Source of the DNA: Candidatus Aenigmatarchaeota archaeon
Lineage (GTDB): Archaea > Aenigmatarchaeota > Aenigmatarchaeia > QMZP01
NCBI GenBank assembly: GCA_030615165.1
Contig: JAUWZW010000004.1
Span: 1-33,316, forward strand
Reading direction: 5' to 3'
DNA: 33,316 nucleotides
Positions 1,337 through 20,406 of this stretch are shown here, piece by piece. The notes beneath the pieces were generated by a model. It searched no databases and was not told where the DNA came from. It saw only the letters and a program-made list of their open reading frames with translations. The position numbers and the translations under genes were made by a program. Numbering within the stretch: position 1 is the first letter of the stretch; the number at the start of each line of letters is the position of its first letter.

Positions 1337-1579
1337 ATGCAGCAGAGAAAAGGACTTGTAGGCATGATAGCCCTGATAATTTTGGGGCTGGGGAGCGTGT
1401 TATTCGGAGCCGGATTTCTGAACTTAAGCTTTAAGCTCGGGGAGATGGCATGGATGTTTATTGCATTAGCAGTAATACTTGTTGGTGGACTTTTTGGCTT
1501 CATGTTTTTGAAATGGGGTGTCAAGACAACAGGCAAGATGCTCAGGGGCGAATTCGAAAAGAAAAGGGGCTGGCTATGA
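1337..1579 (+). CDS. Small two-TM membrane protein with C-terminal ...KKRGWL
   Basis: 80-aa ORF, two hydrophobic segments, ATGA overlap with the next gene at 1576. Confidence 0.75.
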   Translation: MQQRKGLVGMIALIILGLGSVLFGAGFLNLSFKLGEMAWMFIALAVILVGGLFGFMFLKWGVKTTGKMLRGEFEKKRGWL

Positions 1580-2316
1580 AAAAAATAATTCTGCCCTTTT
1601 TTGTTTTAGCAATGCTGGCTCTGGTTGTTCCGGTTTATGCCCAAACAAACATGACTGCCGGGAACCCTTCTTATATTGTTACATCCCAAACACAGCCAAC
1701 CGGCTACACAACGGATATAGGGATTACGCCCACAGAAACAACAGGATTTGTGGCAGGATCCAGCATATTTATTTGCCTGCCTATTGTTGGGACAGAATGC
1801 GGTGTTTGGGCCAAAGCCACACCATTCTCAGGAACAGAGACATGGGAAGTTTTCGATGCAACATGGAAATCCTTTTACAAGGAAACAAAATCCTATGAGT
1901 CGTTTGAATGCACACTTGCGGATGGCACAGCCTCTAATTGCTATCAGGCCACATGGAGATTTGATGTGGGGGGTTTCATGCCCGCCGGAACATACTACGT
2001 AAGGTATGCTGGAGGTATCCTGGGCCCTTACGTGAATCTTAGGTTTGATATTGGTGAGGGGACGATATGGGACAGCGTGTTTGCACCACTTTACTTTGCC
2101 GGGATGAAGCTGCCAGCTCTGTTCTGGTTGACATCCCCAATCTGGGTTGTTCTGATAGTCATGGGTGTATTGATGATTATCACGAGGTCCATAAGTGGAG
2201 GAGCCAAGGTCATTGCGAGGTTCTTCAAGGCAGGGGCTGGTGCGGCTAGAAGAGTAGCAACGGCTATCAGAGAAGAAGTCCCCAAGAAGGCGAAAAAAGC
2301 GAGATCATATTGGTGA
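1576..2316 (+). CDS. Secreted protein with C-terminal TM and basic tail ...KKARSYW
   Basis: Start MKKIILPFFVLAMLALVVPVYAQ (signal peptide); C-terminal hydrophobic helix plus Lys/Arg-rich tail. Confidence 0.75.
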   Translation: MKKIILPFFVLAMLALVVPVYAQTNMTAGNPSYIVTSQTQPTGYTTDIGITPTETTGFVAGSSIFICLPIVGTECGVWAKATPFSGTETWEVFDATWKSFYKETKSYESFECTLADGTASNCYQATWRFDVGGFMPAGTYYVRYAGGILGPYVNLRFDIGEGTIWDSVFAPLYFAGMKLPALFWLTSPIWVVLIVMGVLMIITRSISGGAKVIARFFKAGAGAARRVATAIREEVPKKAKKARSYW

Positions 2317-2320
2317 TAGA

Positions 2321-3244
2321 ATGAAAAGATTATTGCTTGGCTTGATGGTTGCCCTTTTTTTACCGGTAGTTTGCTCGGCACAGGGAGTTATGGATGTTAT
2401 GCCAGCAACATTTGATATAGCTCCAGGTGTAACCGTCCCTACTGTGAGCGATGCCGCTGTTTTACAGAAAATAGACACGGCCCTGATAAGATTCCCATGG
2501 TTCCTGACATCAGTGCCGCCGGGAGACTATGTCAATTGGAAAAACACGCTAACATTGACCGGCGGGAGCATACGCTGGCCTGTTCTCTCGCTTATTATAT
2601 TTGCCGACCTGAACAATGATGACGTGCCTGACAGTGCTACCTATATGTATTCGGCCACAGACGGCGAGATGACATCATGGAACCTTATTTCCAAGTTGCC
2701 AACCTATGGATGGAAGGAACTGGAAATCACCTGGATGTCTGGAGGGGAATACACGGGGGAAATCACACTACTGGGGGAATATTATTTTGGATTTTTCGGA
2801 GCAGAGGGGGACATAAATGCAAACGGCAAATTCGATTTTGTCTGTGATAAAGATCAATTACCCACCCTGGTTTGTGATATGCACTGCGGTATGGGTCCCA
2901 CGGGGATCGTTGGCTGCTATAGTGAAAATTTAGATACAATGGTGATGTGGGAGTGGAAGGTTTATGAGGGCATAAACCCAGAGGCTGTTCTGGAGAGCAG
3001 ATGGCTTGTTCCTATAGATGTCCCGGAAGCCATGTGGGGCACCTGGAAAATCCAGGCAACATTGATAGACCAGGCTTATAGCTACCCGGAGGGAGTGCTG
3101 TTATCTCAGCAGAGTGCCAGCTTTGATGTCGGTTATGCAGCACCGAACATAACTTTCACGGTAGAAATCTGGATGGTTATTGCGGCGGCAGCCACAGCCG
3201 GAGTGTCAGCAGTTGGTTATGCACTGACCAAATTGAAACCCTAA
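2321..3244 (+). CDS. Secreted protein with signal peptide and C-terminal TM
   Basis: 307-aa ORF, MKRLLLGLMVALFLPVVCSAQG; DLNNDDVPDS and DINANGKFDF Ca-binding-like loops; C-terminal TM. Confidence 0.75.
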   Translation: MKRLLLGLMVALFLPVVCSAQGVMDVMPATFDIAPGVTVPTVSDAAVLQKIDTALIRFPWFLTSVPPGDYVNWKNTLTLTGGSIRWPVLSLIIFADLNNDDVPDSATYMYSATDGEMTSWNLISKLPTYGWKELEITWMSGGEYTGEITLLGEYYFGFFGAEGDINANGKFDFVCDKDQLPTLVCDMHCGMGPTGIVGCYSENLDTMVMWEWKVYEGINPEAVLESRWLVPIDVPEAMWGTWKIQATLIDQAYSYPEGVLLSQQSASFDVGYAAPNITFTVEIWMVIAAAATAGVSAVGYALTKLKP

Positions 3245-3270
3245 TTTATTCTAAATCTTGACCGAAAAGC

Positions 3271-3278
3271 ATTTAAAG
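3271..3278 (+). promoter_or_regulatory. Archaeal TATA box for a leaderless small gene at 3300
   Basis: atttaaag about 25 nt upstream of ATG 3300. Confidence 0.5.
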
Positions 3279-3299
3279 CTATTTGTCCAATAATTGTAT

Positions 3300-3455
3300 A
3301 TGTTGGCTGGAAAGGGACGGATAATATGGAGCGACCAGGGAGTAAAAATCAGCATACCGGCTGCGGTCTCCAAGGACTCCGCATTCCCATTCCCTCACAA
3401 AAAGAACATACCCGTGACAATCAAGATTAACGGTAAAAAGCTGGAAGTGGGATGA
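3300..3455 (+). CDS. 51-aa hypothetical protein (MLAGKGRIIWSDQGVKISIPAAVSKDSAFPFPHKKNIPVTIKINGKKLEVG)
   Basis: Own translation; below the ORF-track cutoff; TATA upstream, ATGA overlap with the gene at 3452. Confidence 0.55.
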   Translation: MLAGKGRIIWSDQGVKISIPAAVSKDSAFPFPHKKNIPVTIKINGKKLEVG

Positions 3456-4105
3456 TGAATAAATTTATAGCAAGTTTGATGCTGGGGATTTTGTTGGTTG
3501 CATGCGGAACCGCAAGCGCCCAGAATGTGGAAACGGAACTTACCGTGCAAGAAGTTATAGGGCCTGTAGTGCAGTGCTTTCCTGTATTAAACAACTCGTG
3601 CATGGTAATAAACGAGGATTTGCTGGAGTCAAGGACATGCGAAGGCCTCTGCAAGTGGGGAGGGTCAGAACGCTGGTACGGAGGCTGCATGAGTGGGCGC
3701 TGGAATATCACAGGGGACTATCCTGGTAAGTGCAACTGCGAGTATATCTGTGATTCCAACGGAAACGAAAGTAAACGCATAAGGTCCATTCTTTCTGAAA
3801 CAAAATTCACACCAACATTTCAATACTACCTGAATAAAACAATACCCACACCTTATCCTGTTGAAACCGATATTGAACAACCAATAGAGATTATAGAAGA
3901 GAATGATTCCAACTTTGTGGCTGGATTGCCCCAAAGGATTGAAGCAGTTCCGATATCAAAACTTTTGACATCAAAAGTATCAAAACCCTCTGAAGAAACA
4001 TTGCCTTCACTCAAAACAGAACCAGTACCCCCAATAGGATTGAGAACCAATCCAATTGTGCAGTTTTTCGGCTGGTTTGTGAAGACATTATTTTTCTGGA
4101 TTTAA
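3452..4105 (+). CDS. Secreted Cys-containing protein with C-terminal TM ending ...LFFWI
   Basis: 217-aa ORF; signal peptide MNKFIASLMLGILLVACGTASAQ; Cys cluster; hydrophobic C-terminus. Confidence 0.7.
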   Translation: MMNKFIASLMLGILLVACGTASAQNVETELTVQEVIGPVVQCFPVLNNSCMVINEDLLESRTCEGLCKWGGSERWYGGCMSGRWNITGDYPGKCNCEYICDSNGNESKRIRSILSETKFTPTFQYYLNKTIPTPYPVETDIEQPIEIIEENDSNFVAGLPQRIEAVPISKLLTSKVSKPSEETLPSLKTEPVPPIGLRTNPIVQFFGWFVKTLFFWI

Positions 4106-4110
4106 GGAGC

Positions 4111-4764
4111 TCACGGATTCACTGAAATGTTTGCCTCGTATATCCCCTTGTTGCCCTGAAATATGATGAGCCCGTTATCAAACCATGCCCTGTGGATACT
4201 GTGGGTTGTGAGGTTCTCTACAGCAACGAACAGTTCATCACCAAGCCTTGCTCCCTCATCAATAGCAAGTGTTGTTGAATCGTCCTGGTAAACATGAGTG
4301 AAGCCATGCATGCCCTGGTATTTTATATCAAACATACCGCAGGATACATCATCCGGGTCCAGGATCCAAACCCTGTAACCCAAGGAAACATTTTCCCCTG
4401 TTGTGTTCCATCTAATCCAGCCGTAAAGGTCATCCCAGTTGTTTGTTTGTGTTGGCTGCACAAGGCTAATGCTGCATCCATAATTCAACCCAACTGTAGC
4501 AAGGTCAAAAATATCTATTTTATTATCTTTTTTAACATCAGCATCAGGGTTCCAGTTTGCATCACCCGGCTCTGAGCCGAATGCAAGGCCTACTGTTGCC
4601 AGGTCAAAGATGTCAACCTCCAAGTCCCAGTTTATATCTGCATTGTTGCAAACAGCAAAAACAGGGGCAGAGCTCATGATTACAAGAATGAATGATACAG
4701 CCAGTGGAAATAGCAGTTTTTCAGCATTCATAATCCAACACCGTACTTGTTCACATTTTTTCAT
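4111..4764 (-). CDS. Secreted dockerin type I-like domain protein
   Basis: Duplicated EF-hand-like segments DINWDLEVDIFDLATVGLAFG and DVKKDNKIDIFDLATVGLNYG after a signal peptide; start may be 4731 (MNAEKLLF). Confidence 0.75.
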   Translation of the reverse strand: MKKCEQVRCWIMNAEKLLFPLAVSFILVIMSSAPVFAVCNNADINWDLEVDIFDLATVGLAFGSEPGDANWNPDADVKKDNKIDIFDLATVGLNYGCSISLVQPTQTNNWDDLYGWIRWNTTGENVSLGYRVWILDPDDVSCGMFDIKYQGMHGFTHVYQDDSTTLAIDEGARLGDELFVAVENLTTHSIHRAWFDNGLIIFQGNKGIYEANISVNP

Positions 4765-4897
4765 TATCCAAAAACTTTAAATAGCTAACCATGTTTATTG
4801 CACATCTGATGGATAATGGTATGAAGGGTGGAAACTAATGCGACACATGCTTATACCACCTAATTAATATTTTAAGCAGGCAAACTAATTCTATTAT

Positions 4898-6370
4898 ATG
4901 GTAACACTGAAACAAGGGTTAATTTATTTGGGGTTATTTATAATAGTAATTGGAACTTTTGGCTATGTCGGCGGCATTGAATCGACACAATTAACAATTT
5001 CCACATTAACCATACAGTCCTTAGCAGTCACTTCTTTACCGGATAAAATTGACCCAACCCTGGCAAAGGTTGGGAACGTTTCCGTGATAATAGAGTTCAG
5101 CGGTGCGATTTCCAAGCTACGAATTTATCCGCTGGCAATTCAGCCCCTGGAGATAGTAGGCTTTGTTCCAATAGCCATAGTCCCGATTGAGTTGATTTAC
5201 CAGGGTAAAAAAAGCTGGGCAGTAAGCGGGACCGTAAATGCAACAGCCCTTCCTGACATAGCAGCGGACCCGAATGTCATCAACATATGGAAAGACGAAA
5301 GGATTTACCTGTACAATACATGCTTTCCTATTGATTGCGATGTCTCCACAGGCTACAGCTATACCCTGGATGGTGCAGGGGAAGCCCTGAAAGTGGACCA
5401 GGTCTGGGCAAACGGGACCACAGGGGATGGGATAGTGGTTGCCATTGCTGATACCGGGGTAAACAAAAACCATCCAGAGTTAACCGGAAGGGTTGTGGAT
5501 GGCTGGGCCCCTGAAAACTATACATGGGGGAATGACACGGATGTCCATGGCACAATGACAGCAGCCATAGTTGCAGGCAGCACGATTAACGGAGGCAAAT
5601 ACAATGGCATGGCCCCAGAGGCGGAGATATACGATGTTATGATAATGCCAAAAGGAGAAGGATATGCAAGCGATACGTTAGACGGTTATGACTGGATTAT
5701 TGATCATTATTCAACAGACGGGACACCGCAGATTGTTTCTAATTCATGGGGGTGTTACGGACCATGCTCTTTAGATAATCCAGAACACCCCGTGACCAAG
5801 AAAATACTGCAAGCTATCGACAGGGGAATAGCGGTTGTTTTTGCCCAGGGAAATTGCGGGAGAACCTGCCCTTCTAAATTTTGTTGGGATTTTAGGGCAC
5901 ATTTGCCGCAAGGGCTTGACAAAGTGATAGCAGTGGGCGCAGTGAACCCGGCACTTAATTATGTTGGGTATTCAACAGAGGGCCCGTCAGTGATAGGAAT
6001 CCTAAAACCCGATGTTATGGGGATTACGCACTTCATGGGGGCTCTGGGTTCAGGATACGGCTTAAACACAGGAACGTCCTCATCCGCTCCAAGCATAGCA
6101 GGTGTCATTGCTTTGCTCAAGCAGGCAAATCCAGAATTAACGCCTGCAGAGGTCAAAAAGATTCTGGAAGAATCCGCAACGGATATGTGCGATGCAGGAT
6201 TTGATAAATGGACAGGTTACGGGGTTGTGGACGCTTATGACGCTTACGTGGGGGCAATAGCCTTTCCTTCGAGAAGGAATCCCTGGGGGTATGGTGCCCT
6301 TTCAGGGGTTGCAATGTGCGGTGTTGGGTTGATCATACCCAAACCCAAGGGCAAGAGGTTCTGGACATGA
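4898..6370 (+). CDS. Subtilisin-like serine protease (S8), membrane-anchored, ending ...GKRFWT
   Basis: Catalytic motifs VAIADTGVNKNHPEL, DVHGTMTAAIVAG, GTSSSAPSIAGVIALLKQ; C-terminal TM. Confidence 0.92.
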   Translation: MVTLKQGLIYLGLFIIVIGTFGYVGGIESTQLTISTLTIQSLAVTSLPDKIDPTLAKVGNVSVIIEFSGAISKLRIYPLAIQPLEIVGFVPIAIVPIELIYQGKKSWAVSGTVNATALPDIAADPNVINIWKDERIYLYNTCFPIDCDVSTGYSYTLDGAGEALKVDQVWANGTTGDGIVVAIADTGVNKNHPELTGRVVDGWAPENYTWGNDTDVHGTMTAAIVAGSTINGGKYNGMAPEAEIYDVMIMPKGEGYASDTLDGYDWIIDHYSTDGTPQIVSNSWGCYGPCSLDNPEHPVTKKILQAIDRGIAVVFAQGNCGRTCPSKFCWDFRAHLPQGLDKVIAVGAVNPALNYVGYSTEGPSVIGILKPDVMGITHFMGALGSGYGLNTGTSSSAPSIAGVIALLKQANPELTPAEVKKILEESATDMCDAGFDKWTGYGVVDAYDAYVGAIAFPSRRNPWGYGALSGVAMCGVGLIIPKPKGKRFWT

Positions 6371-6490
6371 AAGCACTTATACTGGTCAAAGTAAAAAAGA
6401 AGCGGAAATTCTGAAAATAAGAAAAAGAAGAAGTTCTGGTTATAAGGGACTGAATGTTAAAAATTTAAGCAATCAAAACAAAACAATTAC

Positions 6491-8692
6491 ATGAAAACCA
6501 AATTCATATTAATTCTGACTGCGTTTATAGTATTCCTGTTGCTGTCTTTAAATAGTGAAGCTCTGGTTTTTGGGGAATTCCCTGACCGCTTCAGACCTGA
6601 GAGCTGGCTCAATGCTCATTATCTCATGCTGTCAGGAATAAATGCAAACCAAAATATTAATATTAGTCTTTATAATTTTACAACAACAGGCACAGGGACA
6701 TTCGGAGCTCTGGTTGTTGACACTGACACTCTTGTTGTTGATGCTGTTAATCATAGAGTTGGGATTGGGACGGCGACTCCTACCCAAGAATTAGATGTGA
6801 TTGGGGACATTAGAGCTAATTCAATTATGAGAACAGGTTCAGGCGACTTAACAATAGGAAATACAATATATGGTGTGTTTTATGTAGGTGGGACTGATTC
6901 TACCAGTCAAATGTCTGCTTGGGCTAATAATTTTAATTTTCAGTGGGAGAGAAGTGTTGGGTCTTCAGTTGCCCATCATATATTATTTAGGGGAATGATA
7001 GGAGATGAAGAACAAAAATACTTCAAAATTGGTGGTCATTGGAATGCTACTGACCCAGACCATCAGACTCCTTATGCTCAATTTTATGTGAATACCTCTT
7101 TTGATGAGAATGTTGGCATAGGGACAACAAGTCCTCTAAGTAAACTTTACATAAAAGATGATGACCAAACAACAGGTGCAAGTATGTTTACTTTAGAAAG
7201 TGATGATGGACCTTCTATAAAATTAAATGATACAGGCGAAGGTCATTACTGGACTATAAATACTGGTGGGGCTGGGACTGATATATATTTCAATTATGAT
7301 GGTGAAGGTGCATCTGGAAATAAAGTATTTTTTGGTAATGATGGTAAGGTTGGCATCGGAACAACAACACCAAGTGTTAATTTAGAATTAGGGACAAGTG
7401 GAGGAGGAAACAGACAAATAAGATTACAATCTGATACTGCGGGAGTGTATAGTTTTTGGTCTCAAGGAAGCACAGGAAATTTCTTTTACGGAACTGGTGC
7501 ATCTATGTTTATTGGGACAACAGACGAAAAACATCTTCTTTTTGTAACAAACAACACCGTAAGAATGAAAATTGATGATGATGATGGATTTGTTAATATA
7601 ACTAAAGATTTATATGTTGAAGGAACTTCTTATCTTGAAGATGCTGATATAACTGGGACACTTACATTTCCGTCAACATCAAAAGCACTAAATATAACTT
7701 CGGATGGCAGTGCTGACTCATCATTATTTGACATGTATATGACAGATAGCGGGGTTTTTGAAAGCTTTTATGGAATACACATCTCTGGAGTATCGGATTC
7801 CACCCCCCTTGATTTTTATCCAATTTTTATTAACATGACAACTCCGACAGACAATCCTTTCCTGCAGCCCATAAAAATCATTCTTAACAGCACATACTCT
7901 GGGGGATTGGCGACAATAGCAGGACCAGCCGTGAATATAGATGTGAGTGCAGATATGGGAGGCGGTGATATAACAGGAATGAATATACGCAGCACCGCAA
8001 GTAATTTAACGGGTGGTGGGGAGAATATGGCTCTGATATTAGAGGCACGTGGAGCGCCCTCTGGTCAGAACTGGGCGCTTCTCATCAGAGAGGGAGACAT
8101 AGTGTCACTTTCAGGAGATTTGCTTTTCTATGAGGGCAAAGCCGAGATTGGGTCGGCAACGGGTGGCACAGCAAGGTTGTGGAGGTATGATGATACAATA
8201 GCTACTGGTAATGTTATTGGCTCTCTTGAGTTCTACGGAACAGGCGGGCAGGACGTTGTCTCTGCAAAGATAGATGCTGTTTCAGGGGCAATATGGGGCT
8301 GGGGAGATATATTCACTGCTCCCACAATGTTGAAGTTTTATACTACAGGATTAGCGGATGCCTCAGCACAGGAGAGGATGATAATAATGTATGATGGCAG
8401 AGTCGGCATTAATGATAGTTCTCCTGATGCATTATTAGAAATAGCTGGCAGTATAGATAGATTTATGATTTCTTCTGTAGCAGACAATGACGGAGATATA
8501 TTTATAGTTAAAGATACTGGCGATGTAGGTATAGGAACGATAACCCCACAAAATAAATTAAATGTTATTGGAGATTTTAATGTAACTGAAGATGCGATTA
8601 TAGGTGGAGATTTAAACATGAGTGCGAATAATGTAACTGATGTGGATTGTATAGTTTTTGCATCAGGGGGGAAAATTTGCTCAGGTGCTTAG
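6491..8692 (+). CDS. Tail-fibre/adhesin-like beta-structured repeat protein
   Basis: Four VGIGTxxP..L.V.G repeats (6758-6781, 7112-7135, 7349-7372, 8525-8548), as in phage tail fibres and large secreted proteins; N-terminal signal. Confidence 0.7.
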   Translation: MKTKFILILTAFIVFLLLSLNSEALVFGEFPDRFRPESWLNAHYLMLSGINANQNINISLYNFTTTGTGTFGALVVDTDTLVVDAVNHRVGIGTATPTQELDVIGDIRANSIMRTGSGDLTIGNTIYGVFYVGGTDSTSQMSAWANNFNFQWERSVGSSVAHHILFRGMIGDEEQKYFKIGGHWNATDPDHQTPYAQFYVNTSFDENVGIGTTSPLSKLYIKDDDQTTGASMFTLESDDGPSIKLNDTGEGHYWTINTGGAGTDIYFNYDGEGASGNKVFFGNDGKVGIGTTTPSVNLELGTSGGGNRQIRLQSDTAGVYSFWSQGSTGNFFYGTGASMFIGTTDEKHLLFVTNNTVRMKIDDDDGFVNITKDLYVEGTSYLEDADITGTLTFPSTSKALNITSDGSADSSLFDMYMTDSGVFESFYGIHISGVSDSTPLDFYPIFINMTTPTDNPFLQPIKIILNSTYSGGLATIAGPAVNIDVSADMGGGDITGMNIRSTASNLTGGGENMALILEARGAPSGQNWALLIREGDIVSLSGDLLFYEGKAEIGSATGGTARLWRYDDTIATGNVIGSLEFYGTGGQDVVSAKIDAVSGAIWGWGDIFTAPTMLKFYTTGLADASAQERMIIMYDGRVGINDSSPDALLEIAGSIDRFMISSVADNDGDIFIVKDTGDVGIGTITPQNKLNVIGDFNVTEDAIIGGDLNMSANNVTDVDCIVFASGGKICSGA

Positions 8693-10057: not shown

Positions 10058-10072
10058 AATGGGAGGGATTTA

Positions 10073-10330
10073 ATGGAAAATAAAAGAAAAAATCTGATAA
10101 TGGTTGTGATGGGAGTTGCATTAATCCTGTGTGTCAGTTACATGGTAGGTTCAGTAATTTACGGCTCGGGAAGATTACAAGGGCAGATAGACACCTTAAA
10201 TGAACTTGACCTTAAAGGAGTAGTATCAATTCCAGGTCTCAACAATACAGTAGTATTGTTTTATTCATATCAAGGTTGTCAAAACCAGTGCCAAGCATGG
10301 ATTAATCAGGTACAGAATAACCAGGGGTAA
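10073..10330 (+). CDS. Small membrane-anchored protein
   Basis: 85-aa ORF, GGGAGG SD-like sequence upstream, N-terminal TM. Confidence 0.65.
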   Translation: MENKRKNLIMVVMGVALILCVSYMVGSVIYGSGRLQGQIDTLNELDLKGVVSIPGLNNTVVLFYSYQGCQNQCQAWINQVQNNQG

Positions 10331-10335
10331 GGTAT

Positions 10336-12525
10336 ATGCGTTTTGGGTTTTTCTTGTGGGCAACAATGTTAGTGGTTTTCTTAATTCCTATTGCCTCTGC
10401 CGTCCAGGAAGCAGATGATGTGTGTCAAACTAATACTGAATGTGTCCGTGGAGACTGGATATATAATGATTCATACGACCCATATACTGATTTCGGATGC
10501 ACCATAAACATAACATATCCAAACGGAACCCAAGCTGTTACTGATGGGCAAATGACTAACCATTCTAATGCTTGGCACAACTATACTTTTATCCCTCCGG
10601 TGGATGGCTATTACATCTGTGAGATGTTTTGCAATATGAGCGGGGATGTAGGCAGGAAAAACTGCAATTTTGTGGTGTTGGACATTACTATTTATAATAT
10701 AAACGAAACAATTTCAGAGATAAACCAGACCACTTATGATATTTTGACCAACCAAACCACACTATATAACTTAATTGACAGCTTAGCGAACATAACAGAA
10801 TCAGATGTCTGGACTTATGCAACAAGGATATTATCGGATTATTCTGGTGTGTGGACTGTTGCTGCAAGAACTTTAACCGATTACAACCAAACTGAAATGT
10901 GGGCTTATTTAACAGATATAAATCAATCTACAGAAATAGATATACTTGACTTAATAAATTCTCTTAACAACCTTTCAGCCTCTGATGTCTGGACTTACAC
11001 CACTCGAAGCTTAACCGATTACAACCAAACTGATATGTGGCTATATTTGGACAACATAAACACAACAGTCTCTGCTTTGCCCTCTGAAGGTGATATTTGG
11101 ACATATGCCGACAGGAATTTAACCTACACAGACTGGGGAACAGGTACCTTGTATGTATGGAACTCGACCTCAAGGAACCTTACCTGGTATAATGGAACTG
11201 CTGAAGATGTGTGGACTTATGGAACAAGAGAAATAACAGGTGGTAATTTAACTACTATGGACTGGACTAAGGTTTCAGATTTATCCGATTTAGCAACCCA
11301 AACAAATACAACGGAAATAAGAGATTTAATAAATGGGTTGGCAAATATCACGGCAGCTGATGTTTGGGTTTATACTACAAGAAACCTAACAGATTATAAT
11401 CAATCTGATGTTTGGATATATTTCGAGGATATTAATATTACCTAATTAATTGGAGAGGATGTCTGGACATATGCAACAAGAGTATTAAGTGATTATTCTG
11501 GGGTTTGGAGTTATGGAACTAGAACCTTAACCGATTACAACCAAACTGATATGTGGGCTTTCTTAGATAATATAAATTTAACAGTTTATAGAATTTTACA
11601 CAATCAGACTGCCTACTTCCCAGAATGGAACACGACCTTTTACCTGTGGAACGACACCTATTATGTTTCTGGGGGGTGGAATGAGAGCATATACAATCTC
11701 AACACCAACTTTTCCACTGTGTGGGAATATTTCAACTGTGCTGGTCTTGGTTCAGGGAACGAGATTTGTAATTATCTGAGCAGGATATCTAATAATCAGA
11801 CTGCCTACTTCCCAGAATGGAATACAACCTTTTACTTGTGGAATGATACCTATTACACCATCTTGAACGATTTAATAATGAACCTGAGCGAGAACTGGCA
11901 AACCTTATGGAACCACTTCAACTGCAGTTATTCGGGTTACAGTATTTGCGATTATCTAAGCGAAATTAATCAAACAACAAAAGATATGTACAGTTACCTT
12001 CAGATTATTTTAAAACCAAGGATAGACAGCATCTATATAGACACGCAAATTATTTTAAGTAAATGGGGCATTTATACCGCTTCGGATATAATCAATAAAC
12101 TGGACTTAATAATTTCTGATGCGCAGGACATACAGAATTCTATTTCTAACTTAAGTGTTGATATGAAAAACAATTTCAGCTCAATTTCTCTAGAGGTAAA
12201 CTACATTAAAGATAACTTAGAAAGTTTGAAGTCTGAACTTGGATACCATGGAAAGACGATAACAGCATACGCACACATTAAAGGAATAGTTGAAGATCTT
12301 GAAAAATTAAACCAAACCGTATCCGCTACCGAAGAATCAACACTTCAGCTCACAGGGAAGGTAACAGCCCTTTCCCTGACAACCTCCTCGGCAATAGTTA
12401 TTCTTATTCTGATCATATTAACATTTTCATCCGTAGTTATTTACCTCAGAAAACCTGAATTATTTATGGGTATCAAGACAAAACTTAAAAGGAAACCCAA
12501 AAGAAAGTCATACTGGTTGGATTGA
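10336..12525 (+). pseudogene. DVWTYxTRxLTDYNQTxMW repeat (fibre-like) surface protein with C-terminal coiled coil, TM and ...KRKSYWLD; interrupted by in-frame TAA at 11443-11445
   Basis: ORFs 10336..11445 and 11551..12525 share a frame; repeat coding continues uninterrupted between them (LIGEDVWTYATRVLSDYSGVWSYGTRTLTDYNQTD). Confidence 0.75.
11599..11860 (+). repeat. Internal tandem duplication NQTAYFPEWNTTFYLWNDTYY
   Basis: cagactgcctacttcccagaatgga... occurs twice with mostly synonymous differences. Confidence 0.8.
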
Positions 12526-12526
12526 T

Positions 12527-13270
12527 ATGTTAGAAGAGATAGTGGTGATGGTCTTGTTCATGAGTTTTCTCGTATTCTTAATCACAATTGTAATTCTTTT
12601 GAGGAGCGATAAGAGGGGGGTATTGGCTATGAGTGAGCACTGGCTGGAAAACAAAAGCCAGTTCTGGCTGGATAATTTTGAGCGGTTTATAGGCAGGGTA
12701 AATTATCTAATACTGCTTATAATAGTGGGCACGCTGATAGCAGCAGGCTTTCACGAGTTCTGCCATGCTATAGGTGTGATTGTTGTCGGATTTACACTCG
12801 CCGGTTACGGTCTCGCTCCGGGCATGTTCTGGACAGCATTTACGGCCCTGGAGAATCAGATAACTAACACAAAAATGCTTATAGTTTCTGCTGCCGGGCC
12901 ATTGCTGGGATGGCTGCCCGGGGGGTTGGCTGCACTGTCAGAAGATCCAAGATTTAAGGTAATAGGATATCAGATAATCTTGTTTAATTTGCAACAATTG
13001 TTGCCTGTTGAAGGGCTCGATGGCTTTGCCATCGCTCTGTCATTAGAGGGCGTAACAGGAATCAGTTTCTTAATCTGGTCAGTCATTCTTTTCTCAGTTG
13101 CTGTACCCGTTACTTTGTATGTCACCTACAAAATAGCTGATGTGTGGCTTTACCCCAAGAGGAAACTTTTGCCACGAGAATGGACGGGTGCAATAGGACT
13201 TATCTGGATTGTATCGCTTATAGCATCTTATCTTTTGAATCTTTTGATTGCTTTGCTGGTTGGAGCTTAG
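12527..13270 (+). CDS. Site-2 protease (M50)-like membrane metalloprotease
   Basis: HEFCH (HExxH) within a TM segment, plus LLPVEGLDGF resembling the second M50 motif; multiple TMs. Alternative start 12629 (MSEHWLENKSQFWLDNFERF) has an SD-like G-run. Confidence 0.75.
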   Translation: MLEEIVVMVLFMSFLVFLITIVILLRSDKRGVLAMSEHWLENKSQFWLDNFERFIGRVNYLILLIIVGTLIAAGFHEFCHAIGVIVVGFTLAGYGLAPGMFWTAFTALENQITNTKMLIVSAAGPLLGWLPGGLAALSEDPRFKVIGYQIILFNLQQLLPVEGLDGFAIALSLEGVTGISFLIWSVILFSVAVPVTLYVTYKIADVWLYPKRKLLPREWTGAIGLIWIVSLIASYLLNLLIALLVGA

Positions 13271-13524
13271 ATTAAATCCTTCACTTTGTTTGCGGTCCAA
13301 ACTAATACTATCCAATAAGTCATAGCCAAAAAATATGAGAGGGAAACTGCCTGTGCATTTACAAAAATTTCAGGATGCAAAAATACGTGTATAGCAGTCA
13401 GCACGGTTGTTATAGCAAATCCTAAAGCAAGCATCCAGGATGGCTTAAGTTCTATTTTTATGAGCTTAAAAACCAGCACCAAAACTACAAATTCCAGCAC
13501 CACAACTAATATGAAATTTATCAT
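13267..13524 (-). CDS. Small multi-TM membrane protein
   Basis: ORF 13267..13557; likely start MINFILVVVLEF at 13524; hydrophobic. Confidence 0.6.
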   Translation of the reverse strand: MINFILVVVLEFVVLVLVFKLIKIELKPSWMLALGFAITTVLTAIHVFLHPEIFVNAQAVSLSYFLAMTYWIVLVWTANKVKDLI

Positions 13525-14813
13525 ACAACCACCGTCAAGTGCCTTAAAACCTCCCAAACCTCTAGAGTGAATTGTATTATTGGAGAAACATAGCAGCCAG
13601 GATCTGCTAAATCAGTTAGCCCATCACAGTCGTTATCTATGCCATCATCACAGTTATTGTTTGCAACCGATTCATCCACGCTGTACCCGCCGCAACTGCA
13701 GGAGCAGTCAGAACAGTCATCAGAGGTATAAACACAGGATGTTCCGGAGCAATAATAATTAATATAAGTGTTTCCTAAACAGCCATCCCCGGTTCTTCCT
13801 GCCCCGGTTCCTTGTGTGTTGCAATTTATACAGGAAGTGCAACCACATGATGTATCTGTTCCGGAGCAGTAGTTGTAGCATGCTCCTCCAGAACAATATT
13901 GGCAAGAACCGCAGGCTACGCAACCACTTTTAATAATTTGTGAACTAGTCACGCTGTATATGCAGGATGTTCCGGAGCAATAATAATTCCTGTACTCTTG
14001 GCCCTGACAGGTACATCTGTTGTTGCCATCACAGCATGCATAACTGCTGCCTATGTTAACCCAACTGTCTGTATGCCTGTTTGAGTAAGTATAACCGCAA
14101 CCAAGTACATTATTAACACAACCATAATTTCTATATTCACAACCATTTCCATAAGCATAGCAGCTGTCCAGTGCGTTGCAATTTACACAGAGAGGCCAAC
14201 CTCCACAGCTCGTATCAGTTCCGTCACAGGTTGGGAGTTCTTCACAGGCCCCATTAGAGCAAGTATATCCGCTTGGACAGTCGTATGTGGCACTAGCTGG
14301 TTCATTATAATAGCAAAAACACTCCTCAATACGAGCAGCCCCTATACACATATCGGTGCAACTCAGTCCGCTGCAGGACTCTGTTACCGTTGTTCTTACA
14401 TAGATATTAACTCCTCCGTCAGGGTCTGAACAGATTGCTCTGTTACACCAATAGCTCTCCCAGCAGAATGCCGGATAAGAAACTACTGTAGAACTGCCCG
14501 GGGGGATTTGTTTTTCCTGTATGAATCCCCAGGCACTGGTGTAAAGAACCACCACACATCCCCCTCTTAAATAAGAAGGGCAGTATACTGTCGCTGTTGA
14601 GCCGACACGGCATCCAGATTCATCTGGATAGTCAGAGCAGAGGCATCCTCCAACAACAGTGAGTGGCTTGAAAGTAAGAATACCAAAGATAGTTGAAAGT
14701 GGCTCACCCCAAAATATAGTTATTATCAAAAAAATAACCAACACTGCAGAAACAACAACCAAGATTTTATCATATTTTTTATTTGTTTTTAGCCAGTAAT
14801 CCATATCACACAC
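13521..14813 (-). CDS. Membrane-anchored, very Cys-rich surface protein
   Basis: N-terminal TM; repeated CSGTSC.Y / CSGTDTSCGCTSCINC; C-terminal NCDDGIDNDCDGLTDLADPGC metal-binding-type motif. Confidence 0.75.
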   Translation of the reverse strand: MCDMDYWLKTNKKYDKILVVVSAVLVIFLIITIFWGEPLSTIFGILTFKPLTVVGGCLCSDYPDESGCRVGSTATVYCPSYLRGGCVVVLYTSAWGFIQEKQIPPGSSTVVSYPAFCWESYWCNRAICSDPDGGVNIYVRTTVTESCSGLSCTDMCIGAARIEECFCYYNEPASATYDCPSGYTCSNGACEELPTCDGTDTSCGGWPLCVNCNALDSCYAYGNGCEYRNYGCVNNVLGCGYTYSNRHTDSWVNIGSSYACCDGNNRCTCQGQEYRNYYCSGTSCIYSVTSSQIIKSGCVACGSCQYCSGGACYNYCSGTDTSCGCTSCINCNTQGTGAGRTGDGCLGNTYINYYCSGTSCVYTSDDCSDCSCSCGGYSVDESVANNNCDDGIDNDCDGLTDLADPGCYVSPIIQFTLEVWEVLRHLTVVV

Positions 14814-15330
14814 TCGAATACAGGTAAATAAATATCCCGCTCGGGGTTATGTTCTCGTTTATTCCTCCAAAAGATCCTCCGGCAAGGTCAACAGGAATCC
14901 ACCTGCCAGCTATCTCAACAAAGACGAAGGCATGCCCAGCGAATTTTAAAAAATCAACATTGAAATACACCCTGCAGCTGAGCCCCAGGGACTTCATCAT
15001 CGAGCAGTATAGTATTGACTGGTCGTAGCAATCTCCCTCCCTCGTGTTCAATTCCTTGTCTATGATTTCAAAATAGTTGTTGGTTATCTTGTATTTAATA
15101 TTTTCGTTTATCCAATCATACACGGCCCGGGCTTTACAATCATCTGTTGTGCAATTAGCAGTGATGTTGTGCGCCAAATCATTCACTTTGTTTGGTTGCA
15201 CATTGATTGCTGTTACAAAAGAGGCCCCAACCCAAAGTAAAACTAAGGTGGCAACAGCACACCCTATGATTATAAGAATAATCTTCGACCAGTTTCTTTC
15301 TTTTCCATTATCCAGCCAGAACTGAGCCAT
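14806..15330 (-). CDS. Membrane-anchored transglutaminase-like cysteine protein
   Basis: MAQFWLDNGKERNW, TM, then WINENIKY...REGDCYDQSILYCSMMKSLGL...GHAFVFVEIAGRWIPVDLA (Cys-His-Asp order). Confidence 0.82.
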   Translation of the reverse strand: MAQFWLDNGKERNWSKIILIIIGCAVATLVLLWVGASFVTAINVQPNKVNDLAHNITANCTTDDCKARAVYDWINENIKYKITNNYFEIIDKELNTREGDCYDQSILYCSMMKSLGLSCRVYFNVDFLKFAGHAFVFVEIAGRWIPVDLAGGSFGGINENITPSGIFIYLYSSV

Positions 15331-15366
15331 AATTATTATATATTTCAGCAGTATTAAATAATAATT

Positions 15367-15702
15367 ATGACTGAAGTTGAAGAGCTGAAAGAAAAGCTGG
15401 TAGCCTGTGAGCTTGAACGCAAAAAATTGATGAAAACAAGATATAAGCTTGAAAAACTCAAGGATGCTTTAGGCACGGTGGGATCAGTCGGGTCAACAAC
15501 AGGACTTATCATAATCTTAAGTACAGCACTTGCTACATTTACTATTCCGGGTGAAGGTGAAATAGCGGTGGCAGCGGCAACACCGCAGATAAATCAAGCA
15601 GCTATTTTGTGGATAATTATAGGGCTGATTCTGCTTTTTGTTGGGCTGTATGCCGTTTATCGGGGATGGTTCAAGAAAGAGAAAGAAATCAAATGGTTAT
15701 AA
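15367..15702 (+). CDS. Coiled-coil plus two-TM protein ending ...KEKEIKWL
   Basis: 111-aa ORF, helical N-terminus and two hydrophobic segments. Confidence 0.75.
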   Translation: MTEVEELKEKLVACELERKKLMKTRYKLEKLKDALGTVGSVGSTTGLIIILSTALATFTIPGEGEIAVAAATPQINQAAILWIIIGLILLFVGLYAVYRGWFKKEKEIKWL

Positions 15703-15732
15703 TATTTAAGGACGCAAATACAAAACTAAAAC

Positions 15733-16101
15733 GTGGCTCAGATAATAAAATATTTGGTGGGGGTGGCAAAGGAAATGCCTGAAGAAAAAGAAAGGGTCAC
15801 CAAATTGATAAGGGAAATTGTAGGGAAGCACACAAGGGTTCTTGGGAAATGGCCTGAAGCAGGAATAAAATTTATCAAGGATTGCATAGAAATTGAAAAT
15901 GGGATTCCGCAATTCGTGCCCTCATACGCAAAGGAGAGGTGGGGTCCCGGGCTGGTTTTATTGCGATGTTGGAGTTATCCTGCCAAGACGATAGTGAAAG
16001 GTGGCTTTGTTACAGATGTTCCTGAGGAAGACATAAAAATAATAGAAGAGAGAACCGGGGAATGGAAATATTTTTTGGAAAAATATAAAAGTGCAGGATA
16101 A
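15733..16101 (+). CDS. Hypothetical soluble protein
   Basis: 122-aa ORF, well-formed composition. Confidence 0.6.
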   Translation: MAQIIKYLVGVAKEMPEEKERVTKLIREIVGKHTRVLGKWPEAGIKFIKDCIEIENGIPQFVPSYAKERWGPGLVLLRCWSYPAKTIVKGGFVTDVPEEDIKIIEERTGEWKYFLEKYKSAG

Positions 16102-16108
16102 ATTTAAT

Positions 16109-16270
16109 ATGGTTACTATATGCGAAGTGGATTGGGCAACTGGTTGCGGCGAAATGAGCGGAATACATAATCAAATATGGTGTTGGATGAATTGTAATCC
16201 AATACTGACGTTTTTCATTTTCATAGTGATAGCAATTATCTTAATCATGTATGGAGCGAGCAGGTCATGA
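16109..16270 (+). CDS. 53-aa single-TM protein with Cys-rich ectodomain (MVTICEVDWATGCGEMSGIHNQIWCWMNCNPILTFFIFIVIAIILIMYGASRS)
   Basis: Own translation; ATGA overlap with next ORF. Confidence 0.6.
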   Translation: MVTICEVDWATGCGEMSGIHNQIWCWMNCNPILTFFIFIVIAIILIMYGASRS

Positions 16271-16587
16271 ACAAAAAAAACCAATCCCGCAAAGAACATT
16301 CAAAGAGTCTAAAGAAAAAAATATACGGCACAGTTACGGATTTAACAAGAACATTTTTGGATAAGATAGTAGAGCTTGGTAATGGCGGGACAAAATCAAT
16401 AGAAGAAGGAGATTGCCCAACAAGTTACACCATCGCTAAAAAACTGAGTATAAGCACTTCAACCCCAAAGAAATATTTAGAAATGCTCAGTGAAGAGAAG
16501 AAAGTAGAACCGTTCAACCTGGCTGGAAAAACTGTCTGGGTTGACCCCGGTATTTTTAATTTGGGAAGAGGGACAAATTCTAAGTAA
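16267..16587 (+). CDS. Winged-helix/HTH-like protein
   Basis: CPTSYTIAKKLSISTSTPKKYLEMLSEEKKVEPF HTH pattern; basic N-terminus. Confidence 0.6.
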   Translation: MNKKNQSRKEHSKSLKKKIYGTVTDLTRTFLDKIVELGNGGTKSIEEGDCPTSYTIAKKLSISTSTPKKYLEMLSEEKKVEPFNLAGKTVWVDPGIFNLGRGTNSK

Positions 16588-16660
16588 AAACCATTTTCGC
16601 AAACCGCTATCAAGAGATAGCTTTATAAGCAGGTAAGTTCTATAATAAAAAGTGATATAT

Positions 16661-16885
16661 ATGGCTGAAATATCAAAAGCAGATGTCTTAAGGTTCCTGA
16701 GGGCAGGAGCAATAAGGGCATCCAAGGGCGAGGTCTTGGCCAGGTTCAGCGCTTTCAAGAGAGAGTGCCACATGATTGGGGGGATCCCTCAGCTTGTGGA
16801 CGCTTGGGGCGGGACAAACCTGAGTGTGATGAGATGCCTTGGTGGCATCGGAAAGGTTCCAGGACAAGCATTCACAGTTGCTTAA
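16661..16885 (+). CDS. Hypothetical small protein (MAEISKADVLRFLRAGAIRASKG...)
   Basis: TATA-like ctttataag at 16621; plausible composition. Confidence 0.55.
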   Translation: MAEISKADVLRFLRAGAIRASKGEVLARFSAFKRECHMIGGIPQLVDAWGGTNLSVMRCLGGIGKVPGQAFTVA

Positions 16886-16914
16886 ACAGAAACTGAAGTT
16901 GGACTGATGACGTT

Positions 16915-17103
16915 TCATTTAATTTTAGCTGTGTCTTTATTAATCCAGAATTTCTTTGGCAGCACCCTTTTTACTTTTTCTTTTACAGCATTCCTGATAA
17001 AATCAGACTGAGTTTTGTCACCAGTTTTTCTTTTTGCTTCTCCTATTAATTCAAAAAAATCCTTTGTGGCCCTGAAATGGGCGGACCCATTTTTCTTTGC
17101 CAT
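16915..17103 (-). CDS. Ribbon-helix-helix (CopG-like) protein
   Basis: HFRATKDFFELIGEAKRKTGDKTQSDFIRNAVKEKV pattern; TATA at 17130 about 27 nt upstream. Confidence 0.6.
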   Translation of the reverse strand: MAKKNGSAHFRATKDFFELIGEAKRKTGDKTQSDFIRNAVKEKVKRVLPKKFWINKDTAKIK

Positions 17104-17129
17104 AATTATTATTATGTGCTACATACCTA

Positions 17130-17135
17130 TTTAAA
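17130..17135. promoter_or_regulatory. TATA box (tttaaa) in divergent intergenic region
   Basis: Palindromic tttaaa, 27 nt from the minus-strand ATG 17103 and 35 nt from the plus-strand ATG 17170. Confidence 0.4.
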
Positions 17136-17169
17136 CAGACACCACCAACAATTGAATAAGGTGTTATAT

Positions 17170-17373
17170 ATGGGAAAGACCCTCAAAGAAGCTGTTGAGG
17201 AAGTATCCAAGGAATTAGAAGGACATGAAAAAGAGAACGTGAAAGCCATCTTCCCCCAGGTACTGAAATCATGCCTAGACCAGTCCAGCACTGAAGATGA
17301 GTTCAATGAGTGCATGGACCAGTTCAAGAAATCAGTGGATACTACCCAAGACATGGTTCAAGAAAAACTGTAG
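17170..17373 (+). CDS. Small acidic helical protein
   Basis: 67-aa from MGKTLKEAVEEVSKELEG; heptad-like helices. Confidence 0.6.
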   Translation: MGKTLKEAVEEVSKELEGHEKENVKAIFPQVLKSCLDQSSTEDEFNECMDQFKKSVDTTQDMVQEKL

Positions 17374-17412
17374 ACGGGAAGGTATTTAAGGAAGCCTTTC
17401 CAAATAATAAGT

Positions 17413-17784
17413 ATGAAACTATTAATTGTTCCTGCACTTCTGGGAATAATTAGTACAATAACGGGTTTCTTGGCAGCGCTTACAATTGACTTTATAGTGC
17501 CATTCATAGTTGTTGTTGCAGGTGTTGGAACAACATTATACTTGTTTTATGTGAAAAAAATCAGGGTGAAAACCATAACATTGGACTTCATTGACCTTGG
17601 TTTTACAGCGATTTGGATACTTGTCATTTTCCTTGGCCTTGGCTGGGCTAATTGGGTAGCAGGCCTGTCAGTTATTGGCATCGCTCTGCTGATCCACAGC
17701 AGCAGAGAACTTTTTGTGACCAGGGCCCCCAGAGGATATAAGATATGGACAAGAGCCAGGATAAAAAAATTCTGGAGTATTTAA
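17413..17784 (+). CDS. Multi-TM membrane protein ending ...IKKFWSI
   Basis: TATA tatttaag 17383-17390, about 26 nt upstream of ATG; hydrophobic. Confidence 0.75.
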   Translation: MKLLIVPALLGIISTITGFLAALTIDFIVPFIVVVAGVGTTLYLFYVKKIRVKTITLDFIDLGFTAIWILVIFLGLGWANWVAGLSVIGIALLIHSSRELFVTRAPRGYKIWTRARIKKFWSI

Positions 17785-17815
17785 CTTTTATTTGGGCAAG
17801 TGCTAATAATTAACC

Positions 17816-18307
17816 ATGAAAAGAACTCTGATAGCTTCAACCCTGGCAATTGCCCTGGTCCCTATATTCAGTTACTATGTTTTTAGAGTGTTGTGGTCCT
17901 CAATCCAACTTACAGGATTTGTTGCAGCTTCTTCTTATTTGGTTTGGTATGCCCTGCAGGCCAGGGAAACGAAAAAACAGTATTGGGTTGATCAACCAGA
18001 ATGGCAGGAAGAGGCTTATGCCTGGGTTACTGCCTACATTTTAGCCGCTTTGCTGGCTCTCGGGACGGTTGGTTTAGAAGCGGAAAATCTAGCCACATTT
18101 TTCATATTTTTGACCTTGGGGCTTCTTGTCAGGTTTACGGTCCGGAGTATAATTAACGATGTTCTTCCGGTCATAAAGAAAAAGGAATTGATAAAAAGGG
18201 TGAGCATGCAGGAACAGATAATAATTGGGGTAGCTGTTGCTTTTCTCTGGGCGCTTGTTTTAACAGCAATTGGGTCCGCCCTGGGCATATGGGTAATAGG
18301 GGGATAA
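17816..18307 (+). CDS. Multi-TM membrane protein
   Basis: 163-aa ORF; central KKQYWVDQPEW; C-terminal TM ...GIWVIGG. Confidence 0.7.
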   Translation: MKRTLIASTLAIALVPIFSYYVFRVLWSSIQLTGFVAASSYLVWYALQARETKKQYWVDQPEWQEEAYAWVTAYILAALLALGTVGLEAENLATFFIFLTLGLLVRFTVRSIINDVLPVIKKKELIKRVSMQEQIIIGVAVAFLWALVLTAIGSALGIWVIGG

Positions 18308-18314
18308 TTCACTT

Positions 18315-18434
18315 TCAGGTCGTGATAGCCGCATAGTGCTGTTTACGCTTTACCAGGTCTTCCGGAGGATCTATTTTGCCGGCAAACTCTATACCTTGCA
18401 TGGTGCTGGTTTTGATTTTGGATTTTATGATCAT
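18315..18434 (-). CDS. Possible 39-aa protein (MIIKSKIKTSTMQGIEFAGKIDPPEDLVKRKQHYAAITT)
   Basis: Own translation on the minus strand; short. Confidence 0.35.
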   Translation of the reverse strand: MIIKSKIKTSTMQGIEFAGKIDPPEDLVKRKQHYAAITT

Positions 18435-18546
18435 AACACAAATAAAGTGTCATTTTGGATAAGTTAAGAATGGTTACCTGAGCACGGGCCCGGCATTGCA
18501 GCCAGGTTGAAATAAACATTTATATTTGGAAGGTTAAATATCAACT

Positions 18547-19200
18547 ATGAAAAGGTTATTTGCATCTTTAGTGATGTCAATTCTGTTTTTATTACCGATG
18601 GTTGCAGCACAGTTTACACCACCCACAATGGTTACAATCAATTTCAAGCTTTATATGCCGTACACAGAGGGGAACCTAACATTGAATGACCCCTATTGTT
18701 TAGTCATGCTTTTGGATTACCAAAAAAACATCATGGGACAAACGGACTCCATCATTAATGGGACAGCTGTCATTCAGATTGAACACGCTGTTGGTAATGC
18801 TTTTGTTACAACCGCATGGATTGATGGCGCAAAAGACATATCGGATCAGTATGTCCAAATACAAAATAATACTGCTGAGGTTTTGATGGCACCCGGCGAG
18901 GAAATGTTGGGTGGCCTGTTTCATGATGGCGGACTGATGGCTGGGGCATTTTTTTCGTTTGACATAATAAGGTTCTTCTCATTATCAATCAGCAGCCTAT
19001 TCAATGGCGCCCTGGGTGCAAAGATAATAGCTGCTGTATTCTTAGCAATATCAAGCTTTGTGGTGTTCGGTGCCTTTAAATTAATTTCAGCCACGGTCAG
19101 AGGATTCGTAGGAATAGGAAAAAGTGTGGCAAGCGATCTAGGAAATGTAAAACTAGGTTTGAAACGTAAAAAGAAAGAGGAAAAATCAAGGTGGTTGTGA
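18547..19200 (+). CDS. Secreted protein with signal peptide, C-terminal TM region and tail ...KEEKSRWL
   Basis: TATA tttatatt 18519-18526; signal peptide; hydrophobic C-terminal half; basic tail. Confidence 0.75.
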   Translation: MKRLFASLVMSILFLLPMVAAQFTPPTMVTINFKLYMPYTEGNLTLNDPYCLVMLLDYQKNIMGQTDSIINGTAVIQIEHAVGNAFVTTAWIDGAKDISDQYVQIQNNTAEVLMAPGEEMLGGLFHDGGLMAGAFFSFDIIRFFSLSISSLFNGALGAKIIAAVFLAISSFVVFGAFKLISATVRGFVGIGKSVASDLGNVKLGLKRKKKEEKSRWL

Positions 19201-19201
19201 T

Positions 19202-19459
19202 ATGGGATATCCTGCTGAAGAATTTTATATTGGAAAGAAAGTTGAACTGATAGACAGAAGAAGAGGCAGGATAGAAGGCGTTATAACAGGTTTTAGAGAT
19301 TGTGAACCGGTTCCAGCTTTAGGTGGAGTAATTACAGGATGTGGTTTTCCGCAAGTAAAGGTTAAAGTAGAAAAACCTGAACCATCTGAGGGATGGGTTC
19401 CTTTGAATTATGTTCGTATAGTTGAAACACATAAGAAGGAGAAATCAAGGTGGTTGTGA
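19202..19459 (+). CDS. Small soluble-looking protein with tail ...KKEKSRWL
   Basis: 85-aa ORF without TM; C-terminus nearly identical to the previous gene. Confidence 0.7.
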   Translation: MGYPAEEFYIGKKVELIDRRRGRIEGVITGFRDCEPVPALGGVITGCGFPQVKVKVEKPEPSEGWVPLNYVRIVETHKKEKSRWL

Positions 19460-19464
19460 TTATT

Positions 19465-19581
19465 ATGGGGAGAAAAATCTTTTTATGCGGGGCCGGGCTA
19501 CCTGATGAAGGTAAACTAATAGACGAAAAGGACATTATGAAAGAATTAACACAATTAACGCCAAAGAGGTTTTGGTTATAA
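19465..19581 (+). CDS. 38-aa protein MGRKIFLCGAGLPDEGKLIDEKDIMKELTQLTPKRFWL
   Basis: Own translation; below ORF-track cutoff; ends with the same W-L tag. Confidence 0.55.
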   Translation: MGRKIFLCGAGLPDEGKLIDEKDIMKELTQLTPKRFWL

Positions 19582-19596
19582 TTAGGAAAAAAATGA

Positions 19597-20406
19597 ATGG
19601 TAAAAAAGGGGTATTGGCTTGAAAAAGAGGAATCCGGCCGATTCATTAGTTGGGGAGCGTTGCTGTTTGTTTTGCTGATATTGGTCTTTGGTTTGATAAC
19701 CACATACGTGGTAGACGTATGGGGCTCAGGGCCAAGGACACTTTCCTTTGCCGGATACAACTGGATAGTCAAAGGATCTAACTTCCCCACCAGCCCGGGC
19801 CCTAATTATTTTTCGGACAGGGAAGAAGATGTCTGGGTTGACAGCAATGGTATTCACCTGACAATCAGTCAGCGAAACGGCAGGTGGTTCTCTACTGAGG
19901 TTATTCTCAACCAGAGCCTCGGTTATGGTAAATATGTTTTCCAAACCCGTGGCAGGTTTGATATCATTGACCCGAACATGGTGGCTGCCCTGTTCACATG
20001 GGACAATGATTATCCGGTATATAATTACCGGGAGATAGATATTGAATTTGCACGTTGGGGTGATCCTGATGATGCGACCAATGCCCAATATGTTGTCCAC
20101 CCCGGGTATTATGTCAAACATTACCATCGCTTCCGTATTGACCTCACTACTCAAAATAATGATATGACCCACTACATGATCTGGATACCTGGAAGCATTA
20201 CATTCAAAACATACCGTGGTCAGCATCTTAATAGTACACCACCTGAAAGTGATTTGATTGAAGAATGGGCGCATAGCAGTACAGATGTCCCTCCACCAGG
20301 TAACGAGAACGTTCACTTCAACTTCTGGTTGTATAATGGCAATGCGCCTACCAATAACCATGGCAATGAATTTGTGGTGACAGGTTTTACTTGGAATCCC
20401 CTCTGA
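19597..20406 (+). CDS. Membrane-anchored glycoside hydrolase family 16-like (concanavalin A fold) protein
   Basis: N-terminal MVKKGYWLEKEE and TM; REIDIEFARWG matches the GH16 ExDxE-type signature; C-terminal HFNFWLYNGN... Confidence 0.75.
   Translation: MVKKGYWLEKEESGRFISWGALLFVLLILVFGLITTYVVDVWGSGPRTLSFAGYNWIVKGSNFPTSPGPNYFSDREEDVWVDSNGIHLTISQRNGRWFSTEVILNQSLGYGKYVFQTRGRFDIIDPNMVAALFTWDNDYPVYNYREIDIEFARWGDPDDATNAQYVVHPGYYVKHYHRFRIDLTTQNNDMTHYMIWIPGSITFKTYRGQHLNSTPPESDLIEEWAHSSTDVPPPGNENVHFNFWLYNGNAPTNNHGNEFVVTGFTWNPL

Follow-up and report, generated by a model that had tools for sequence, protein, structure and literature searches.

A Trp-Leu motif recurs at the predicted cytosolic ends of unrelated proteins encoded by a circular element associated with a Candidatus Aenigmatarchaeota genome

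It is well established that, in eukaryotes and the viruses that infect them, many unrelated proteins share a short terminal address tag. Examples are the eukaryotic cytosolic cargo signals, which take the form of KKxx or KKFF-COOH on type I membrane proteins and of arginine signals at the N-terminus of type II proteins. To our knowledge, no such shared terminal tag is known for an archaeal plasmid or virus. Here we describe a motif ending in Trp-Leu on proteins of an element that occupies a 33,316 bp contig (C32, hereafter the window, meaning the whole stretch of DNA analysed) in a 958-kb archaeal metagenome-assembled genome (MAG) of the phylum Candidatus Aenigmatarchaeota, in which archaeal 16S and 23S genes are present. 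Among the closest described systems are the haloarchaeal plasmid vesicles, whose core includes an S8 protease (open reading frame (ORF) 7), an S-layer-like protein (ORF9) and a HerA/VirB4-like ATPase (ORF25); the core of the pR1SE-like apHPVs includes ORF6, 8, 9, 17, 21, 23, 24 and 25 in two conserved clusters (PMC10818511).

A second contig of the MAG, C40 (L039; 17,058 bp), overlaps the window at both ends, by 141 and 131 bp, closing an extrachromosomal circle of about 50.1 kb. Like pR1SE and the apHPVs, the element is a circular archaeal replicon that encodes an S8 subtilisin-like protease, an S-layer-like protein and a HerA/VirB4-like ATPase, all three recognised with Pfam, together with an Orc1/Cdc6-type replication protein. 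It differs in phylum, and the likeness is one of gene content in generic Pfam families, which is weak evidence of kinship. Two haloarchaeal plasmids reached through HerA matches showed no S8 peptidase in their annotated stretches.

The initial annotation of the window listed a tag, [KR]x[FYWR]W[LIT], at the ends of unrelated proteins, and all the listed termini, from KKRGWL of the gene at 1337 to PKRFWL of that at 19465 and including the N-terminal set, are found in the sequence (proteins are named here by the first coordinate of their gene). Among its C-termini, LFFWI (3452/3455) has no basic residue and RSYW (1576) no Leu. Internal positions of the same proteins, host proteins and the hold-out contig C40 served as controls, with genes predicted by a simple home-made caller on which the gene starts depend. 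In the element the literal motif occurs ten times in 1,798 terminal residues against twice in about 10,700 internal ones (p 1.8e-7), whereas in the host it has no preference for termini (p 0.21); strict C-terminal hits number eight in the window, where 0.27 are expected from internal positions, and seven in the rest of the MAG, where 3.7 are expected. The proposal that the tag is specific to the element withstood the comparison with host frequencies, since a C-terminal tag of basic residue plus Trp is present in 12/57 element proteins and 15/845 host proteins (Fisher 1.1e-8), and an N-terminal tag in 6/57 and 3/845 (3.6e-6). C40, which was unseen when the motif was defined, provides a blind replication, with the literal motif terminal in 3/19 of its proteins as against 3/936 host proteins (p=1.3e-4). 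The tag is therefore more than chance, element-specific and real in aggregate, though not for each listed example. A sharpened form requires [FYWH]WL[DE] close to the N-terminus or a C-terminal end of basic-x-WL(D/E); it is found in 13/58 element proteins, 1/936 host proteins (p 3e-16) and 1/706 proteins of relatives, and as it was chosen post hoc the p value has to be weighed with that in mind. Contig C46 (G000, L045) was excluded from the host statistics from the 845-protein comparison onward; its GC content is 30.5% in a 43% GC MAG, and it is probably mis-binned.

Topology, predicted from hydropathy and positive-inside charge, places the tag on the cytosolic side in 14 of the 14 tagged membrane proteins and on the extracellular side in none, as had been proposed. 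The tag is C-terminal in type I proteins and others with a cytosolic C-terminus, and N-terminal in type II proteins and others with a cytosolic N-terminus. The weakest case is the S8 protease (4898), whose C-terminal hydrophobic stretch is marginal and below the transmembrane (TM) threshold. For the 18547 and 1576 proteins, single-sequence AlphaFold models have mean pLDDT values of 50 and 48 and are usable for helix prediction only. The soluble carriers are C40 9591, C40 8262, window 19202 and perhaps the 38-amino-acid (aa) ORF at 19465, which the gene caller missed and whose coding status is uncertain.

The two terminal forms share a chemical context. The N-terminal copies read EFWLE, KFWLE, EFWLE, EFWLT, GYWLE, QFWLD (twice), HWLE and DYWLK, with Asp or Glu directly after WL in seven of nine against a background of 11.7% Asp plus Glu (p 8.7e-6), and in the C-terminal copies the chain mostly stops at WL or WLD; we infer that a single rule of negative charge applies, the C-terminal carboxylate standing in for the acidic residue. 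Tagged termini on C40 include MPKEFWLTKGPKKFWLEGK, MEKEFWLEG and MERKEFWLEE. The motif occurs twice, 8-9 residues apart, in each of two membrane proteins that also bear protease motifs, 12629 (HExxH) and C40 1734 (CPBP); for 12629 an alternative start at 12527 is possible, and the tags would then fall in a predicted cytosolic loop. The Leu codon varies among copies (CTG, CTA, CTT, CTC, TTA and TTG), which points to constraint at the protein level. An 18-nucleotide (nt) stretch, CAGTTCTGGCTGGATAAT, is nevertheless identical in the unrelated 12629 and 14806 genes, with 0 copies expected in shuffles, suggesting that tags can be copied as DNA too. The KRKSYWLD end assigned to 10336/12525 is present at 12525, although the single frame drawn there is split by an in-frame TAA at 11443-11445 and SYWLD belongs to the downstream half; the TAA may reflect decay, an assembly error or a real interruption. 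The small protein at window 16915-17103 (-) contains PKKFWINK internally, close to the C-terminus, possibly as a further variant of the motif.

Some of the listed C-termini have a simpler origin. Within strings of compact genes, the Shine-Dalgarno (SD) sequence of one gene extends over the end of its upstream neighbour, where it may be translated as Arg-Trp or as Trp followed by a stop codon; in this genome the 16S anti-SD is CACCTCC and the host SD AGGTGA/GGAGGT. The two EKSRWL ends (18547 and 19202), the most persuasive pair in the initial annotation, are encoded by one 19-nt repeat, AAATCAAGGTGGTTGTGAT, at 19183 and 19442, which contains AGGTGG just upstream of the next start, and the overlapping SD accounts for both. 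The 1576 gene ends in TGGTGAT, the SD just before the ATG at 2321, and the ends of 1337, C40 1201 and C40 8262 also lie at junctions, with weaker SD-like DNA. For a subset of the C-termini, the RWL, GWL and YW ends at tight junctions, this overlap is at least part of the origin. That every C-terminal Trp arises from AGGTGG or TGGTGA being read, in closely packed genes, in the frame of the upstream gene is unlikely, and as a whole explanation it is refuted by the N-terminal copies, which SD overlap leaves unaffected. The ends at 4898, 15367, 17413 and 19465 have distant or separate ribosome-binding sites (RBS), and the Trp excess in host coupled genes is slight (11/172 against 25/684). C-terminal tags at uncoupled gene ends alone still number 7/41 in the element and 9/684 in the host (p 8.7e-6), and dropping the six junction tags outright leaves 6/57 against 15/845 (p 1.3e-3). 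Because the excess survives these removals and the N-terminal copies are unaffected, SD overlap covers part of the list and not the phenomenon.

An equally improbable account treats the tag as a membrane-interface anchor, in which basic and aromatic residues flanking TM helices set topology without a specific reader. Most carriers are indeed membrane proteins with basic/aromatic tags on the positive-inside side, yet TM-matched host proteins are nearly without it (C-terminal tags in 4/240 against 8/25 in the element, N-terminal tags in 2/240 against 5/25), the tag can lie about 25-40 residues past the TM helix in 1576, 18547 and 12525, and the soluble carriers have no place in it. Slightly less credible again is that functionless tags spread as small repeats, through short duplications of DNA in an element rich in Trp or through an accident of composition: Trp makes up 2.3% of window proteins against 1.2% in the host, and exact repeats of 18 and 19 nt lie at tags, whereas codons differ in most copies and both the surplus of strict C-terminal hits over the internal rate and the concentration of the literal motif at termini speak for more than composition. 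A role in degradation or quality control, with the tag recognised by a protease of the host or of the element, is very unlikely. Terminal hydrophobic tags are classic degrons, and the element itself encodes proteases of the S8 and CPBP families as well as a membrane protein with an HExxH motif; against this, both termini are used, the proteases are themselves tagged and the host proteome lacks the excess.

The tag may instead be a cytosolic docking or sorting motif recognised by one cytoplasmic partner, the most likely of the readings considered, though one that we hold tentatively and that stops a little short of probable. The element would place [basic]-x-[Phe/Tyr/basic]-Trp-Leu plus a negative charge, from Asp/Glu or the C-terminal carboxylate, on whichever end is cytosolic, and on the N- or C-terminus of a few soluble proteins; the tag would dock these unrelated proteins to the common partner and could bring them together at a single place on the membrane, as in the formation of a plasmid vesicle or membrane-bound particle. 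The data show terminal enrichment, specificity to the element, replication on C40, a predicted cytosolic location and an acidic or carboxylate context, from which we infer a single reader, co-recruitment and particle or vesicle assembly. With Orc1, ParB, a HerA-like ATPase, an S8 protease and its own S-layer protein, the element is best read as plasmid-vesicle-like or virus-like. The more specific proposal of an element-encoded cytosolic sorting code (FWL-acid/carboxylate), with one adaptor gathering membrane and soluble cargo for vesicles or particles, is conceivable and rather doubtful. Several observations weigh against docking: no reader protein was identified, six C-terminal tags sit at junctions with SD-like DNA, several of the element's secreted or TM proteins (113, 2321 and 17816) have no tag, the sharpened motif was fitted to data already inspected, and viral contigs, PLSDB, INPHARED and 158 genomes of the phylum yielded no related element with which to compare tag evolution.

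A docking motif would have functional parallels elsewhere. The eukaryotic cargo signals likewise use a code on whichever end is cytosolic, combine basic and aromatic residues and depend on the carboxylate in their C-terminal form; they belong to the eukaryotic coat system, and the analogy is functional, with no kinship implied. In alphaviruses the E2 tail is a short membrane-protein motif bound in budding by one cytoplasmic partner, the hydrophobic pocket of the capsid; the virus has one such protein type and another motif, with no homology to the element (PMC3522669). The CPBP protease of the element weakly matches models of the -CTERM-associated proteases MrtS and MrtJ, far below cut-offs; the element motif differs from that system in that N-termini, soluble proteins and the CPBP protease itself carry it as well. 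A -CTERM signal proper (C-terminal TM, short basic end and a signature before the TM) was rejected, as the tag follows the TM and also occurs N-terminally and on soluble proteins. So was a PDZ-type C-terminal ligand, as the tag is also N-terminal and can have trailing residues, and so was a PCNA-binding PIP-box (Q-x-x-[ILM]-x-x-aromatic-aromatic), whose Gln and aliphatic residue at the required spacing occur in no tag context among all those inspected.

Searches for relatives returned little. The AAA, HerA, 699-aa, Orc1 and 217-aa proteins as queries against viral contigs, and Mini-A against genome contigs, retrieved no relative of the element, and in about 158 genomes of the phylum six query proteins gave nothing beyond distant matches to Mini-A and ParB and a single marginal one to CPBP. 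In one Mini-A neighbourhood (G121) a protein ends in IKRRWL, with no tag excess otherwise. The DNA pattern for M-x-K-E-F-W-L had 22 hits in viral contigs, and no hit marks a tag at a credible gene start; a recurrent hit falls close to the C-terminus encoded by a longer reading frame. A frame-blind pattern count across the phylum was highest in the element's own genome, with counts too noisy to be used.

The element is associated with the Aenigmatarchaeota MAG as its host by binning, by an S-layer gene in common and by a dockerin-like protein. Its S-layer protein (C40 10198-12717) shares 52% identity with the copy that the host has on C42 (2518-5007), the two agreeing at each of their first 29 residues, and one chromosomal relative (41%) was found in genome contigs, in a Candidatus Aenigmatarchaeota MAG; the element-borne gene could serve in surface swapping or as a vesicle coat. 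The dockerin-like protein, at window 4111-4731 (-), is 82.5% identical to host C28 5286-5903, and the same segment occurs in large proteins encoded on host contigs C28 and C36. Besides its backbone the element encodes many secreted and membrane proteins (Table 1). No major capsid protein or portal was recognised among ten proteins compared with PHROGs and the part of the element compared with Pfam; the HerA-like ATPase also matches the terminase family phrog_2666. The 12629 protein has no match in Pfam or NCBIfam, and the 19597 protein no family or PDB match. At window 27817-30036 a ThiF/E1-like protein adjoins a small protein and an AAA-type protein (phrog_1250). Contig C4 (L004) of the same MAG, unrelated to the element, has a 134-bp self-overlap that gives a 15.3 kb circle of 51% GC.

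Table 1. Tagged proteins, associated repeat and backbone genes of the element (window coordinates unless C40 is given)
Feature	Position	Strand	Details
Two-TM protein	1337..1579	+	C-terminus KKRGWL; overlaps 1576 gene start (ATGA), G-rich SD-like region
Type I membrane protein	1576..2316	+	C-terminus KKARSYW; Trp codon within TGGTGAT, SD for 2321 gene
S8 subtilase with C-terminal extension	4898..6370	+	C-tag KRFWT; Peptidase_S8 1.2e-42, domain end at residue 442/490; downstream gene not close
Secreted N-glycosite-rich repeat protein	10336..12525	+	C-terminal TM, tail KRKPKRKSYWLD
Multi-TM protein, HExxH (HEFCH) motif	12629..13270	+	N-terminal double tag SEHWLENKSQFWLDN; N-terminus MSEHWLENKSQFWLDN
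18-nt exact DNA repeat CAGTTCTGGCTGGATAAT, encoding QFWLDN	12659..12676	+	Second copy 15307-15324 (-)
Cys-rich secreted/TM protein	13521..14813	-	N-tag MDYWLKTNKK (terminus MCDMDYWLK); GTG start
Type II membrane protein with transglutaminase-like domain	14806..15330	-	N-tag MAQFWLDN; Transglut_core 6e-18 (Pfam); TM 17-35, K/R-rich ahead of TM
Two-TM protein	15367..15702	+	C-tag KEIKWL; 30 nt to next start
Multi-TM protein	17413..17784	+	C-terminus IKKFWSI; 31 nt to next start
Type I membrane protein	18547..19200	+	C-terminus KKEEKSRWL; RWL encoded by AGGTGGTTG, the SD of the 19202 gene
Small soluble protein	19202..19459	+	C-terminus KKEKSRWL; 19-nt RBS repeat as at 18547 end
38-aa ORF	19465..19581	+	C-tag PKRFWL; separate SD (TTAGGA) for downstream gene
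Type II membrane protein	19597..20406	+	N-tag KKGYWLEK
Topo Mini-A like protein	20581..21387	+	phrog_6247 1.3e-18; annotated Topo Mini-A in LC711082/LC711084; backbone
ParB	31145..32602	-	HTH_ParB 1.7e-21, ParB_N 1.2e-10; element backbone
HerA-like ATPase, C-terminal part	33070..33315	-	Protein spans the join, starts C40 15467
CPBP/Rce1-like protease	C40 1734		Carries tag motif
Orc1/Cdc6	C40 5470-6639		Backbone

As a general warning, Trp-rich C-termini in compact genomes can be read-throughs of the next gene's SD. Should the motif prove to be a cargo label, it would give a direct handle on membrane-particle assembly by DPANN-associated elements, and a sorting code with an adaptor, if true, would give prokaryotes an equivalent of the coat-cargo signals of eukaryotes.

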